Assembly: GCA_024229615.1 (NCBI GenBank)
Contig: JAAESG010000112.1
Location: forward strand, 1 to 33,165
Direction of reading: 5' to 3'
Source of the DNA: Gammaproteobacteria bacterium
GTDB taxonomy: Bacteria > Pseudomonadota > Gammaproteobacteria > GCA-001735895
Length of the DNA stretch: 33,165 nt
The position numbers and the translations under genes were made by a program. Position 1 is the first letter of the stretch, and every line of letters starts with the position of its first letter. The notes beneath the pieces are model-generated. The model did not search any database. It saw only the letters and a program-made list of their open reading frames with translations, and was not told where the DNA came from. Below are positions 2,121 through 8,598 of this stretch, piece after piece.

Positions 2121-2402
2121 GTTTGAGTCAGGCCGAGCCATTTTTCTTTCTCGCCAGGTTTTTCTTGAATTTCGAGTCAGCGGAGCAGTGCCTTCAGTAA
2201 TGCAGTTTCCTGCATAAACCATCAATTGGGAAGTATGATCGCGCCTTTACTGGTGTTTTTATCAGCCTGTGCTCTGGACAGTCGATGAACGTCGGATTTT
2301 GGTAAGCTGGTTACCGTCCATCTGAGCAATTCGGCTTTAAAGGTAAGCGGCATTTAGCAGGAGTAATGCAGGGCAGGAAGCACCGTTTGAAAATATATGC
2401 TC
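2121..2402. other. Intergenic stretch without recognisable gene
   Basis: The DNA between the phaAB terminator and the end of the minus-strand regulator gene holds no open frame that I recognise, no tRNA and no clear promoter. It marks the boundary between the PHA genes and the accessory patch. Confidence 0.5.
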
Positions 2403-2654
2403 TTACTCTTCCGTCAAATTGTGACTGTCTGCCGCACTCAGGTCGAGTCCATAAGCGGATCGCATTTGCTTGATGAATTCCAGCGTCTCAGCACCAAAGG
2501 GGGATTGTCCCTCAAAGCTGTGTAGTACGATCCCTTCAATGAGGTCTCCCATCCCTATCTCATTTCGTGCTGCGATAGCTTTCAGGACTTTAAGGATTCT
2601 TTTTTCAATGCGTACGCCGGTCTGAACGCGTTCGATCTTCTTGAGGTTAGTCAT
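2403..2654 (-). CDS. Small ribbon-helix-helix type regulator (putative)
   Basis: A protein of 83 residues, not recognised as a named family. Its first half fits a ribbon-helix-helix fold: a short strand (RVQTGVRIE), a basic helix (KRILKVLKAIAARNE), a turn (IGM) and a second helix (GDLIEGIVLHSF). Such proteins bind DNA as dimers through the strand pair. The open frame reaches up to 2702 inside a palindrome, but ATG at 2654, or the adjacent in-frame GTG at 2657, is preferred because AGAAGG lies 9-12 bases upstream. It is divergent from the EamA transporter gene with a 28-bp perfect palindrome between them, which suggests it represses itself and the transporter. Function is inferred from fold and context only. 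Confidence 0.6.
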   Translation of the reverse strand: MTNLKKIERVQTGVRIEKRILKVLKAIAARNEIGMGDLIEGIVLHSFEGQSPFGAETLEFIKQMRSAYGLDLSAADSHNLTEE

Positions 2655-2691
2655 CACTGGATAATACCTTCTTGGATTTTTCTTGTAAATA

Positions 2692-2719
2692 ATTGGTACC
2701 ATGGTACCATGGTACCAAT
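2692..2719. promoter_or_regulatory. 28-bp perfect palindrome of tandem 8-bp boxes, likely operator
   Basis: The sequence is identical to its reverse complement over 28 bp, with its centre between 2705 and 2706. It is built from three GGTACC cores spaced exactly 8 bp apart (GGTACCAT, GGTACCAT, GGTACCAA). MetJ-type ribbon-helix-helix repressors bind tandem 8-bp palindromic boxes in this way. It lies between the divergent starts of a ribbon-helix-helix-like gene and an EamA transporter gene, where it could control both. Confidence 0.6.
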
Positions 2720-2743
2720 CGGTTCGAAAGAAAATATTTACTC

Positions 2744-3652
2744 ATGGCAATCAGCATTCAGATGCAACAGATATCGAGTACGGTGTCAGATAATGTCAAG
2801 GGCATACTATGGGCGCTGCTCGCTACAGCATTGTTCGCAATAGTTGCCGCTATGGCGAAAGTTGCCGTCAAAGAATATCATGTTCTGCAAATCCTCTTTT
2901 TCAGGCAGGTTTTAGTCTTTTTGTCCTGTCTGCCATCGATCGCAAGGTCATTTCCTGGAAGCCTGAAAACCCAATACCCAAATATTCATGCGTCACGCTT
3001 GCTCGGTGCATTCGTTGCTTTGTCTTGTAGTATCTGGGCAGTTGCAGTGCTTCCGCTGACCACAGCGATAACATTGGGGTTCGCGCAAGTATTTTTCGTC
3101 GCTTTGCTTGCATTGAGCCTGCTGAATGAATCCGTCGGCAAACATCGAATTGTTGCGGTTGTAGTGGGGTTCGTTGGTGTCGTGATTGTTATGCGCCCAG
3201 GTGTTGAGGGAATGGTCGATATATACGCCCTTATTCCTATCTTAAGTGCGCTCGGAGCAGCCGTCGCAGTTATCTCGGTTCGCAAACTCTCACAAACTGA
3301 ATCAACGGCTACGCTGCTTGTTTATCAATCCGTGTTTGTTGGAGCTTTAGCGGGCGTGCCTCTTTTCTGGTTATGGGTAACCCCGGATTTAAACGGGATG
3401 ATACTTTTGCTGGCAATGGGTGTTCTTGCCACAGTTGCGAATTGGATTGGTGTCAAGGCACTTCGTCTGGGCGAGGCGAGCGTTGTTGGAAACATTCAGT
3501 ACATGCAACTGATCTATGCGGCAATCCTGGGCTTTTTCCTGTTCAGTGAGGTTCCTGATAAATATACGATTGTTGGTGCAGCCATTATTATCGGATCATC
3601 CATTTACATATTCCATCGCGAGGCTATATCAAAGAAACAAGAGTCGATTTAA
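2744..3652 (+). CDS. EamA/DMT-superfamily membrane transporter
   Basis: This is an inner-membrane permease of the drug/metabolite transporter superfamily, 302 residues with about ten hydrophobic segments in two EamA repeats. The first repeat has the typical stretch MRPG near the end of its fifth segment; the second ends in a helix and a short basic tail. Members export amino acids, nucleotides or other small metabolites; the substrate cannot be told from sequence. The open frame begins at 2693 inside the palindrome, but ATG at 2744 is chosen because EamA proteins start just before the first membrane segment. The ribosome site is weak. The divergent regulator at 2403-2654 is the likely controller. 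Confidence 0.8.
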   Translation: MAISIQMQQISSTVSDNVKGILWALLATALFAIVAAMAKVAVKEYHVLQILFFRQVLVFLSCLPSIARSFPGSLKTQYPNIHASRLLGAFVALSCSIWAVAVLPLTTAITLGFAQVFFVALLALSLLNESVGKHRIVAVVVGFVGVVIVMRPGVEGMVDIYALIPILSALGAAVAVISVRKLSQTESTATLLVYQSVFVGALAGVPLFWLWVTPDLNGMILLLAMGVLATVANWIGVKALRLGEASVVGNIQYMQLIYAAILGFFLFSEVPDKYTIVGAAIIIGSSIYIFHREAISKKQESI

Positions 3653-3674
3653 CGACAACAGTGTGTTCCATTGA

Positions 3675-5373: not shown

Positions 5374-6441
5374 CTAGCTGCGTTTGTTCAGCCATTCTGA
5401 TATTGCCGGGGTTACCGTTGCTTGCGCCTTGCCGCTGACATAAATACCGATGTGACCACCGGGGAAGGACAGTTCGGTATAGTCCTTACTGCTGATCAAC
5501 TTGGGTAAAATCTTTGATGCTGCCGGTGGCACCAGGTGATCCTGCTCTGCATAGATATTTAATACCGGTAGCTTGAGGTTCTTCAGGTCGACGTCGTGTT
5601 TGCCGATCTTGAGTCCACCTTCCACGAGTTTGTTCTGCTGGAAGAAATCCTTGATAAACTGCCGGAACGCTTCGCCGGCCTGATCGGGGCTGTCGAAGAT
5701 CCATTTTTCCATGCGCATGAAGTTTTTGACGTTCTTTTCATCGCTGATGATGTCGACCATGGAAACATATTTCTGCCCCATCAACTGGAACGGTTTCAGG
5801 TTCAGAAAAGTCCAGTTGAGCATTTCTCCAGGCAAATTACCCATCGCATCGACGATTGCGTCAATGTCCATTTGTTGTACCCAGTGACTCAACATATTGT
5901 CCGGAGTCTTGCAATCTACCGGTGTCACCATGGTGACCAGGTTTTGCACCTTGTCCTGGTGCAAAGTGCTATAGCACAGGCTGAAGACACCACCCTGGCA
6001 AATGCCGAGGATATTGACCTTGTCGACACCATGGCGTTCACGCATCACGTCGACGCAGCGATCGATATAGCCGTTAATGTAGTCGTCAAGTGTCAGGTAT
6101 TTATCCGCCATATCCGGGTAGCCCCAGTCGATCAGGTAGACGTCCTGTCCGGTATCCAGCAAGCCTTTTATGGTCGATCTGTTTTCCTGGATGTCGGCCA
6201 TGTAGGGACGGTTTACCAGTGCGTAGACGATCAGTGTTGGTATTTTGTTTTGTACAACACCGGTCGATGGCTGATAGCGATACAGTGTAAGCTTATCTTC
6301 ACTGTAGATTTCCTGACGCGGGGTAACGCCAGCTGAAATTTCGTCGGCATCGAGCAGATTCTTAACGCCCTGGCTCAAATTCTGGTTGAATTGCACCAAC
6401 TCATCGACCAATTGGTCGGAACGAAACGGGATATTCGACAT
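5374..6441 (-). CDS. phaC: Class III poly(3-hydroxyalkanoate) synthase catalytic subunit
   Basis: PhaC polymerises (R)-3-hydroxyacyl-CoA on the surface of cytoplasmic PHA granules. At 355 residues it matches class III synthases, which need the partner PhaE. The alpha/beta-hydrolase triad is complete: Cys148 in the lipase-like box GICQGG, Asp301 in AEQDHLVPP and His330 in GGHIG, one residue off the Allochromatium vinosum numbering (149/302/331). It starts four bases after the phaE stop, so the subunits are translationally coupled. A short hairpin (5355-5374) overlaps its stop but lacks a U-tract. Confidence 0.96.
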   Translation of the reverse strand: MSNIPFRSDQLVDELVQFNQNLSQGVKNLLDADEISAGVTPRQEIYSEDKLTLYRYQPSTGVVQNKIPTLIVYALVNRPYMADIQENRSTIKGLLDTGQDVYLIDWGYPDMADKYLTLDDYINGYIDRCVDVMRERHGVDKVNILGICQGGVFSLCYSTLHQDKVQNLVTMVTPVDCKTPDNMLSHWVQQMDIDAIVDAMGNLPGEMLNWTFLNLKPFQLMGQKYVSMVDIISDEKNVKNFMRMEKWIFDSPDQAGEAFRQFIKDFFQQNKLVEGGLKIGKHDVDLKNLKLPVLNIYAEQDHLVPPAASKILPKLISSKDYTELSFPGGHIGIYVSGKAQATVTPAISEWLNKRS

Positions 6442-6445
6442 GATA

Positions 6446-7606
6446 TCAGGCTCCTGCTTTGGCTTTGTTTACGGCGGCTTGCTTTTTCACCACGGCGTCA
6501 GGTTTTTTCGCCGGTGCTTTCCTGGCGACAGCTTTTTTACGTGATGGGGCAGTTTTTGCTGGCGCGCGTTTGCTAGCTGGTGCGGGCTTGGTAACTGGCG
6601 TTGCTTTCGCCGCGGGTGCAGATTGGGGTTGCTTTAACATCGCCCTGATGTCCTTGATTTCATTCCTCAATTCGATATTGTCACGCCGCAGTTGCTGCAA
6701 ACGCATCTGCATGGTGTCGACTTCGCGAGTGTTCGGCAGATTCATCGCACGCAGGAAGTCGTCGGTGATTTCGCTGTAATGCTTTTTCAGAATCATCAGG
6801 CGATTGACCATGTTGCCGTAGAGCGCCTGGTACTCCTCGCTCATTGCAAACTCGGCGTAGTGCTCTTCACTGATTTCAACCCACAGGTCATAGATCTGGC
6901 GCAAGGTCTTCGGAGTCGCTTCGCCATCTATTTTTAACAGGCGGGCCTGGAAACCCTGAATCGATTCGGAGGCCACACGCAGGAAGGCCTGATTGAACTC
7001 GAAGTTAGCCTGGTGGTATTCGATGCCCAGCTGAATTCCTTTTTGTTGCTTCTCCTGGGGTTCACGGAAATAGCCAACACCCGGTGAAGACAGGATCTTG
7101 CCCATTGGGTCAATGGCTTCGCCCATGTTGAATACTGAGGTGTTCATACCTGGTAGCTGCCACGCGGCCTGGTTCATCGGAGTGAAAGCGTCGGCCATCT
7201 GTTGCCAGGACTGTGTCGGATTAAACCACTGTTTCATGAAATCACCGAAAGCGGTGCTATCAAATCCAGGTACACCGGAAAACTGCTGCATCGATTGTTT
7301 GATCTGCTCCATCCATTGGTTGACCGCTTCGACCGGGTTGGCGCCGTTGGTCATGCCCTTGCTGATTTGCTCGGCCATGGAAAAGTATTCCTTGCCCATG
7401 TCGATACATTTCTGCATTGCCTGCTGGATATCGGGTTGGGTTTGAGCTTGACAAGCCTGGCGCCAGAGTTCAAAACTTTGCGACCATAGATCAGACTGAC
7501 TGGCATTGCCGCCGGCATTACTCGATTTGGCCATATCGCTCCAGGCGCCAACGAATTGCTGTTGCGCCTTGAGCCACTGATCTGCCCAGGGATTGCTTTC
7601 GCTCAT
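6446..7606 (-). CDS. phaE: Class III PHA synthase subunit PhaE with a basic Ala/Lys/Pro tail
   Basis: PhaE is the non-catalytic partner that activates PhaC. The N terminus (MSESNPWADQWLKAQQQF), the WFNPTQSWQQM region and a C-terminal coiled segment (MQMRLQQLRRDNIELRNEI) match the family. The frame opens at GTG 7648, but ATG 7606 gives the usual PhaE N terminus and 386 residues. The last 57 residues (330-386) are an Ala/Lys/Pro tail with 16 Lys/Arg and a single acidic residue, including PAKTAP and KAPAKK. Such tails resemble histone H1 and the DNA-binding ends of PhaF and PhaM, so this PhaE may tether granules to the nucleoid (inference). Confidence 0.93.
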   Translation of the reverse strand: MSESNPWADQWLKAQQQFVGAWSDMAKSSNAGGNASQSDLWSQSFELWRQACQAQTQPDIQQAMQKCIDMGKEYFSMAEQISKGMTNGANPVEAVNQWMEQIKQSMQQFSGVPGFDSTAFGDFMKQWFNPTQSWQQMADAFTPMNQAAWQLPGMNTSVFNMGEAIDPMGKILSSPGVGYFREPQEKQQKGIQLGIEYHQANFEFNQAFLRVASESIQGFQARLLKIDGEATPKTLRQIYDLWVEISEEHYAEFAMSEEYQALYGNMVNRLMILKKHYSEITDDFLRAMNLPNTREVDTMQMRLQQLRRDNIELRNEIKDIRAMLKQPQSAPAAKATPVTKPAPASKRAPAKTAPSRKKAVARKAPAKKPDAVVKKQAAVNKAKAGA

Positions 7607-7654
7607 GTGGATAACTCGTTCAAATTTAGAAAGATATGAGCCTAGCACAGACTA

Positions 7655-7667
7655 TTGTGCACTGCAA
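7655..7667. promoter_or_regulatory. Putative PhaR box upstream of phaE
   Basis: TTGTGCACTGCAA contains TGC-ACT-GCA, fitting the TGC-N3-GCA pattern reported for PhaR operators. The identical 13 bases occur in front of the second reductase gene (8559-8571, opposite orientation). Its place about 50 bp before the phaE start suits a repressor site. Confidence 0.5.
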
Positions 7668-7697
7668 CAAAAATTGCTTGAACAGATTCAATTTGGC

Positions 7698-7724
7698 ATA
7701 AAAAAACGGGTTCTGAAACCCGTT
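7698..7724 (-). terminator. Rho-independent terminator after the second reductase gene
   Basis: On the minus strand AACGGGTT, loop TCAG, AACCCGTT is followed by a run of T. The 8-bp perfect stem lies 35 bp beyond the reductase stop and separates that transcript from phaE-phaC, implying that phaE has its own promoter. Confidence 0.85.
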
Positions 7725-7758
7725 CTATTATGCCTGCGGATGGATCAGGAATATTGCT

Positions 7759-8505
7759 TCATGTCATATACATGCCGCCGTTAACCGGCAGGTTAGCGCC
7801 GGTCATGTAAGTGTTGCGATCGTCTGTGAGAAAACTGACCACATATGCAATTTCATCGGGCAGGGCCATACGCCCCATCGGCACTTGCTGGATAATTGAA
7901 TTGCGCACATCTTCCGGGATGGCGTCGGTCATTTCGGTTTTGACATAGCCCGGGGAAACGGAATTCACCGTTACACCCTTGGTTGCCAGTTCCTGAGCGA
8001 CCGCCTTGGTGAAACCGTGCAAGCCGGCTTTGGCGGCGGAGTAGTTAGCCTGACCATACTGACCTTTTTGTCCATTCACTGAAGAAATATTGACGATGCG
8101 TCCAAAGCCATTTTCAGACATGTTGTCGACCACCTGGCGAGTGACGTTGAACGCCGAATCGAGATTGGTGCGTAGAACCGAATCCCACTGCTCGGGCGTC
8201 ATTCTGCGCAAAGTCTTGTCACGGGTGATGCCGGCACAATTGACCAGAATGTCGACCGCGCCGATTGTATTCTCGACGTCGTGTAACATCTGTTGACTGG
8301 ATTCATAGTCACTGACATCGCAGGCGACAATTTCGAAATCATAGCCGTTGGCTCTGTGTTTTTGTTGCCAGGCGTCGGCAATTTCCTTTTCCGGTGGGAA
8401 GTATCCTGCGATCACTTTACGACCCTGATCGGCGAGAGCGATACATATCGCGGTACCGATGCCTCCGGTTCCGCCTGTGACGAGTGCTATTTTTTGTTGG
8501 CTCAT
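7759..8505 (-). CDS. phaB: Acetoacetyl-CoA reductase, NADPH-dependent SDR (second copy)
   Basis: A second PhaB-type short-chain dehydrogenase, 248 residues. TGGTGGIG lies at 10-17, and the catalytic residues are Ser142 (ISSVNGQKGQYGQ), Tyr155 and Lys159. The serine-region sequence is closer to Ralstonia PhaB than that of the first copy. The frame continues upstream to 8598, but ATG 8505 is chosen because GAGGTG lies about eight bases before it and the SDR domain starts there. It has a good promoter with two PhaR-like sites just downstream, and its own terminator. It lies between phaR and phaE-phaC, so it is probably the storage-linked copy. Confidence 0.9.
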   Translation of the reverse strand: MSQQKIALVTGGTGGIGTAICIALADQGRKVIAGYFPPEKEIADAWQQKHRANGYDFEIVACDVSDYESSQQMLHDVENTIGAVDILVNCAGITRDKTLRRMTPEQWDSVLRTNLDSAFNVTRQVVDNMSENGFGRIVNISSVNGQKGQYGQANYSAAKAGLHGFTKAVAQELATKGVTVNSVSPGYVKTEMTDAIPEDVRNSIIQQVPMGRMALPDEIAYVVSFLTDDRNTYMTGANLPVNGGMYMT

Positions 8506-8537
8506 ACTCCTGTCACCTCTTTGCGCTATGATGGAAG

Positions 8538-8552
8538 TGCTGCATTGCAGCA
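8538..8552. promoter_or_regulatory. Putative PhaR operator (CTGC-N3-GCAG palindrome)
   Basis: TGCTGCATTGCAGCA is a near-perfect 15-bp palindrome whose core CTGCATTGCAG fits the CTGC-N3-GCAG consensus described for PhaR of purple bacteria. It lies between the promoter and the start of the second reductase gene, about 20 bp from the sister box at 8559-8571. Confidence 0.55.
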
Positions 8553-8558
8553 AATATA

Positions 8559-8571
8559 TTGCAGTGCACAA
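8559..8571. promoter_or_regulatory. Second PhaR-like box adjoining the -10 element
   Basis: TTGCAGTGCACAA is the exact reverse complement of the box before phaE (7655-7667). It overlaps the last two bases of the -10 hexamer of the reductase promoter, a position where binding would block RNA polymerase. Confidence 0.5.
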
Positions 8572-8598
8572 AATAGTGGTTAAATGCCTGACTGTCAA
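8570..8598 (-). promoter_or_regulatory. Sigma-70 promoter of the second reductase gene
   Basis: On the minus strand TTGACA (8598-8593) is separated by exactly 17 bp from TATTTT (8575-8570). The -35 is a perfect match and the -10 matches four of six positions. Transcription would start near 8563, inside the PhaR-like box. Confidence 0.7.

Follow-up and report, generated by a model that had tools for sequence, protein, structure and literature searches.

The closest described counterpart in operator geometry is MetJ, each dimer of which binds one 8-bp box and which represses only when two or more adjacent boxes are available (PMC3228920). In gene layout, the closest counterpart is SerE, a DMT exporter of Corynebacterium glutamicum whose gene is divergent from that of its dedicated regulator, NCgl0581, which binds the intergenic DNA (PMC7260847). 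The locus analyzed here resembles MetJ in that a small putative repressor is paired with palindromic 8-bp boxes in tandem (three in the window and two to three at 55 of 84 related loci), although the box is KKTAMM rather than the metbox, the protein is shorter, and its partner genes encode exporters and SRPBCC or DUF proteins instead of methionine functions. It resembles SerE in that a drug/metabolite-superfamily exporter is divergent from its own regulator (PMC7260847), but NCgl0581 is a LysR-type, positive regulator that responds to L-serine, whereas the regulator here is a ribbon-helix-helix (RHH) protein and most likely a repressor. A literature search that reached few subscription papers returned nothing relevant on RHH genes paired with EamA or SRPBCC genes, on RHH repressors of efflux with a divergent transporter, or on RHH proteins with a GGTACC operator. 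The regulatory cassette is real and ordinary in kind, and it has apparently not been described so far.

The window, by which we mean the whole 33,165-nucleotide stretch analyzed (contig JAAESG010000112.1 of a Gammaproteobacteria bacterium), carries a minus-strand gene for an RHH regulator of 83 aa (MTNLKKIERVQTGVRIEK...DSHNLTEE; positions 2403 to 2654) and a plus-strand gene for an EamA/DMT-family transporter of 302 aa (2744 to 3652). Between their ATG codons, at 2654 and 2744, lies an 89-bp gap that contains a perfect 28-bp palindrome at 2692 to 2719 (ATTGGTACCATGGTACCATGGTACCAAT; halves ATTGGTACCATGGT and ACCATGGTACCAAT), which we propose as the operator. Within it, GGTACC boxes start at 2695, 2703, and 2711 (box 1, 2695 to 2700; the central box 2, 2703 to 2708; box 3, 2711 to 2716), an exact 8-bp period. 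These positions confirm the first-pass annotation, which had described three GGTACC cores at that period in a symmetric 28-bp site between the two genes. When up to 3 mismatches were allowed, GGTACCATGGTACC occurred 4 times in the window, versus 0.79 expected: two exact overlapping copies inside the palindrome and two weak ones. The three-box pattern KKTAMMnnKKTAMMnnKKTAMM was found at one location in the 5.24-Mb genome; this count is weak evidence by itself because ~0.3 locations are expected by chance from the base counts. Given that the strict pattern occurs at a single genomic location, the switch seems dedicated. Longer reading frames for both genes were considered and rejected, since their starts (2702 for the RHH gene and a TTG at 2693 for the EamA gene) would fall inside the operator and lack conservation support; conservation among relatives of the regulator begins at residues 1 to 7.

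A possible EamA promoter on the plus strand (2683 to 2710) can be read as TTGTAA at 2683 to 2688 and, 16 bp downstream, TACCAT at 2705 to 2710, within the boxes. A consensus scan for promoters and terminators did not find this element and recognized no strong promoter in the 89-bp gap. Since the scan gave no more sites than shuffled sequences, the placement of the promoter is putative.

We identified the regulator as an RHH protein from a subthreshold profile match, a structural model, and conservation among relatives. Its only Pfam match was to PF13467 (RHH_4), shared over residues 7 to 42 yet scoring 20.1 bits, under the cutoff of 25. The relatives likewise score below this cutoff, and searches with the protein gave no match among NCBIfam profiles and no clear relative among PDB sequences. 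An AlphaFold2 monomer model built from a 70-sequence alignment (pLDDT 92, pTM 0.80) shows an N-terminal strand followed by two helices (residues 18 to 30 and 35 to 47), as in solved RHH proteins, and then an extension with helices at residues 55 to 68 and 74 to 79. Foldseek returned no significant E values for this model. In a second structural comparison, the five best chains were Arc and CopG (Z = 3.4 to 3.8), with a root mean square deviation of 1.7 to 2.1 Å over 37 to 39 residues, corresponding to model residues 12 to 50; these Z values are low because the domain is small. YiiF and ParG, which like Arc and CopG are RHH proteins, ranked lower. The RHH fold suspected from the sequence is thus the fold of the model.

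Arc reads DNA through residues 9, 11, and 13 of its strand. The superposition places Q11, G13, and R15 of the regulator, all invariant in the 70 RHH sequences, at these Arc positions. Despite this likeness to Arc and CopG, identity to them is only 15 to 22%, and the protein differs from both in its tandem 8-bp operator and in a conserved C-terminal extension of ~33 residues (about 50 to 83). The first-pass annotation had likened the site to those of MetJ-type repressors. The 8-bp geometry does match, but the regulator had no match to a MetJ profile in either Pfam (up to E = 1) or NCBIfam. The chains listed by the second structural comparison did not include MetJ, which is uninformative about likeness either way. 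The regulator thus appears to work like MetJ in operator geometry, while the profile searches argue against MetJ membership.

If the boxes are the regulator's operator, they should recur near other members of its family. A scan with one genome per species gave at least 520 RHH loci; the best 80 of these, which come from Proteobacteria, Acidobacteria, and other groups, were taken for comparison, and a separate search added a relative in Nonomuraea (Actinomycetota). Most of the loci taken show the array upstream on inspection. Strict boxes (KKTAMM) were counted from -200 to +20 of the RHH match at 84 loci. At least two strict boxes with 8-bp spacing were present at 55 of the 84 loci and at least three at 20, compared with 0 to 3 loci for strict box pairs at each of the other spacings between 6 and 14 bp and with 4 of 2,553 background pieces of 220 bp. 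With one mismatch allowed, 67 of the 84 loci carried an array, versus 1 to 7 at other spacings. The KKTAMM consensus was read from the very loci counted, a circularity that the spacing and background controls answer in part, and the loci are not independent (many are from Mesorhizobium, four are from Pseudovibrio, and several are close relatives). The cross-genome footprint is nevertheless more than chance, and homologous loci do keep the box array.

The information profile of these sites has an 8-bp period that extends across about four boxes, with the two central ones strongest, and is alike in the loci with EamA (17) and those without (38). What is conserved is the KKTAMM array rather than the perfect palindrome emphasized in the first-pass annotation: the exact 28-bp symmetry is confined to the window among the loci seen. 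The nearest relative (L005, with an RHH protein 94% identical) has an imperfect palindrome with two perfect boxes and degenerate flanking boxes, and the palindrome of L025 is perfect but shorter. At the threshold used, nine loci had no array (L022, L024, L026, L031, L038, L041, L046, L052, and L075); L041 is an EamA locus, and the sequence of L052 is masked in that region. Among 19 more diverged RHH members in an independent set drawn from a single family, 6 had an upstream array, with the genome of L013 counted again, so either the footprint fades as relatives become more distant or the box consensus shifts. As a separate observation, a Roseobacter subgroup (L021, L022, L024, L026, and L119) has the RHH gene near large repeat-type proteins and no array.

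The transporter assignment rests on PF00892, which matched the EamA protein in two repeats with 86 bits (cutoff, 28.2), and on orthologues (53 to 89% identical) that are divergent from an RHH gene at 18 loci besides the window. A PDB sequence search gave no clear solved relative, and a plasmid collection held only EamA paralogues of <40% identity, which were of no help regarding the substrate. At 17 of the 19 RHH-EamA loci, the window included, at least two strict boxes lie between the genes; the regulator-operator-EamA trio noted in the first-pass annotation therefore recurs, mostly in Alphaproteobacteria. Distances among the RHH proteins correlate with those among the EamA proteins (Mantel r = 0.79; 0 of 5,000 permutations), a codivergence to which shared species history contributes.

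The site could, however, serve autoregulation only, with the RHH protein binding the array at its own promoter and the EamA gene merely placed in the shared intergenic space. The array does lie mostly at the promoter of the RHH gene itself, and the partners vary (SRPBCC, DUF, MFS, or none evident). On the other hand, the RHH-EamA pair holds together across classes. In addition, when 390 genomes of the order were searched starting from EamA, 4 had a close orthologue. L115 (the genome of L013) and L117 have an EamA orthologue with an adjoining RHH gene and an array, and the L117 site reads like that of L018. At L116, a C-terminal RHH remnant adjoins the EamA orthologue and the site is weakened; the intact RHH gene is elsewhere in that genome, at L119. 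At L118, the EamA orthologue keeps two arrays with no adjoining RHH gene, the genome's RHH gene being ~4.3 kb away, which counts against autoregulation only.

Rearrangements at loci whose RHH gene itself lacks a strict array point the same way. The array heads a DUF-RHH operon at L045 and L057 and an SRPBCC-GNAT-RHH run at L048, precedes an SRPBCC gene at L020, and stands beside a LysE-like gene at L009. In the search of such loci, six arrays lay outside the RHH-proximal region, and ~1.4 were expected over the searched length at the measured background (0.029 per kb). Nothing supports the array as the RHH operator, and the partner as the target of the regulator, more strongly than these natural rearrangements. 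Since L009, L020, and L048 carry the array at the partner's promoter, autoregulation as the sole role of the site is improbable.

The RHH family has several types of partner, EamA among them. LysE exporters adjoin the RHH gene at L007, L008, L010, and L013 (with a PF01810 match for L008), and MFS transporters do so at L042 and L058. A frequent partner is a ~130-aa protein family with DHxxHVRxxW...YHETIT motifs (L028, L032, L045, L051, L057, and L061, and further L063, L074, L076, and L080 to L082). This protein has no Pfam match, and in many relatives its gene overlaps the upstream RHH gene by 4 bp. Partners with an SRPBCC fold overlap or follow the RHH gene at L034, L036, L043, L044, L050, L053, L055, L062, L066, L068, and L070 and at L037, L052, L065, L078, and L079. 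Glu and Trp residues are invariant among them, and the Acidobacteria members have a signal-peptide-like N terminus. A model of an SRPBCC-type partner (pLDDT 94.8) matched SRPBCC, Bet v 1, and START structures with Foldseek E values down to 2.6e-7.

The small RHH protein, its autoregulatory-type site, and the 4-bp overlap with the ~130-aa downstream gene in many relatives would also fit an antitoxin of a toxin-antitoxin-like pair, since such modules usually autoregulate through a tandem operator. We regard this role as highly unlikely, given that the partner here is a divergent 10-helix-type transporter, that the partners elsewhere are SRPBCC-fold proteins or LysE or MFS transporters, and that no partner looks like any of the toxin families known to Pfam.

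Judging from the sequence comparisons, it is very probable that the RHH protein uses the three-box site as a switch to control both itself and the exporter. We consider it likely that the protein is an autorepressor on tandem 8-bp boxes that occludes both divergent promoters until a signal relieves repression, which would make the locus a self-contained export switch. At least two RHH dimers would sit side by side on the boxes (KKTAMM; here three copies of GGTACC), each inserting its beta-ribbon into the major groove; as in MetJ, each 8-bp box would take one dimer, and a minimum of two boxes would be required. The bound dimers would shut both promoters, that of the RHH gene and that of EamA, and TACCAT inside the array may provide a -10 element in both directions. 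The signal, most likely the substrate of the presumed exporter or a related metabolite, would act on the C-terminal extension (residues about 50 to 83), whose conservation makes it a candidate sensor. Release of the repressor would then allow the exporter to be made.

The protein might instead, or in addition, activate the EamA promoter. AmrZ is an RHH protein that both activates and represses (PMC3325190), and a divergent layout with the site between the two starts suits an activator as well. Given that the array in many relatives falls within 20 to 60 bp ahead of the controlled gene's first codon, often beside the start, bound protein would, as a general argument, block RNA polymerase, and we find activation quite improbable.

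Repression by an autorepressor at this site would give a compact two-gene exporter switch that is directly testable. More broadly, an operator can now be predicted for an RHH family of more than 500 loci that falls below the cutoff in Pfam and is absent from NCBIfam. Targets of these regulators could become predictable from DNA alone across phyla, which would lead to exporters and uncharacterized partner genes, possibly responsive to one kind of signal. That a single operator serves both exporters and proteins with hydrophobic-ligand-type folds suggests a role in small-molecule handling. Tentatively, and with low confidence, the family could comprise widespread, unnamed small sensors in which a hydrophobic metabolite or xenobiotic is the ligand of the short C-terminal extension, with one conserved 8-bp box array controlling interchangeable modules: exporters (EamA, LysE, and MFS), SRPBCC-fold binding proteins, and the ~130-aa protein.

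The RHH-operator-EamA cassette looks horizontally acquired as a unit, because the RHH gene is present in only 2 of 41 genomes of the window's family, because homology with the other family genome has sharp edges, and because the next relatives of the cassette after that genome are Alphaproteobacteria. In the stretch compared, this homology covers exactly 2399 to 3654, with 84% nucleotide identity, and ends at both edges. The cassette is flanked in the window by acetyl-CoA acetyltransferase/acetoacetyl-CoA reductase-type and polyhydroxyalkanoate-synthase-type genes (31 to 1974 and 5374 to 8598). A Rhodospirillaceae relative (L006) has such a reductase gene (7475 to 8210) ~3 kb from its RHH gene; this gene setting may be a coincidence.
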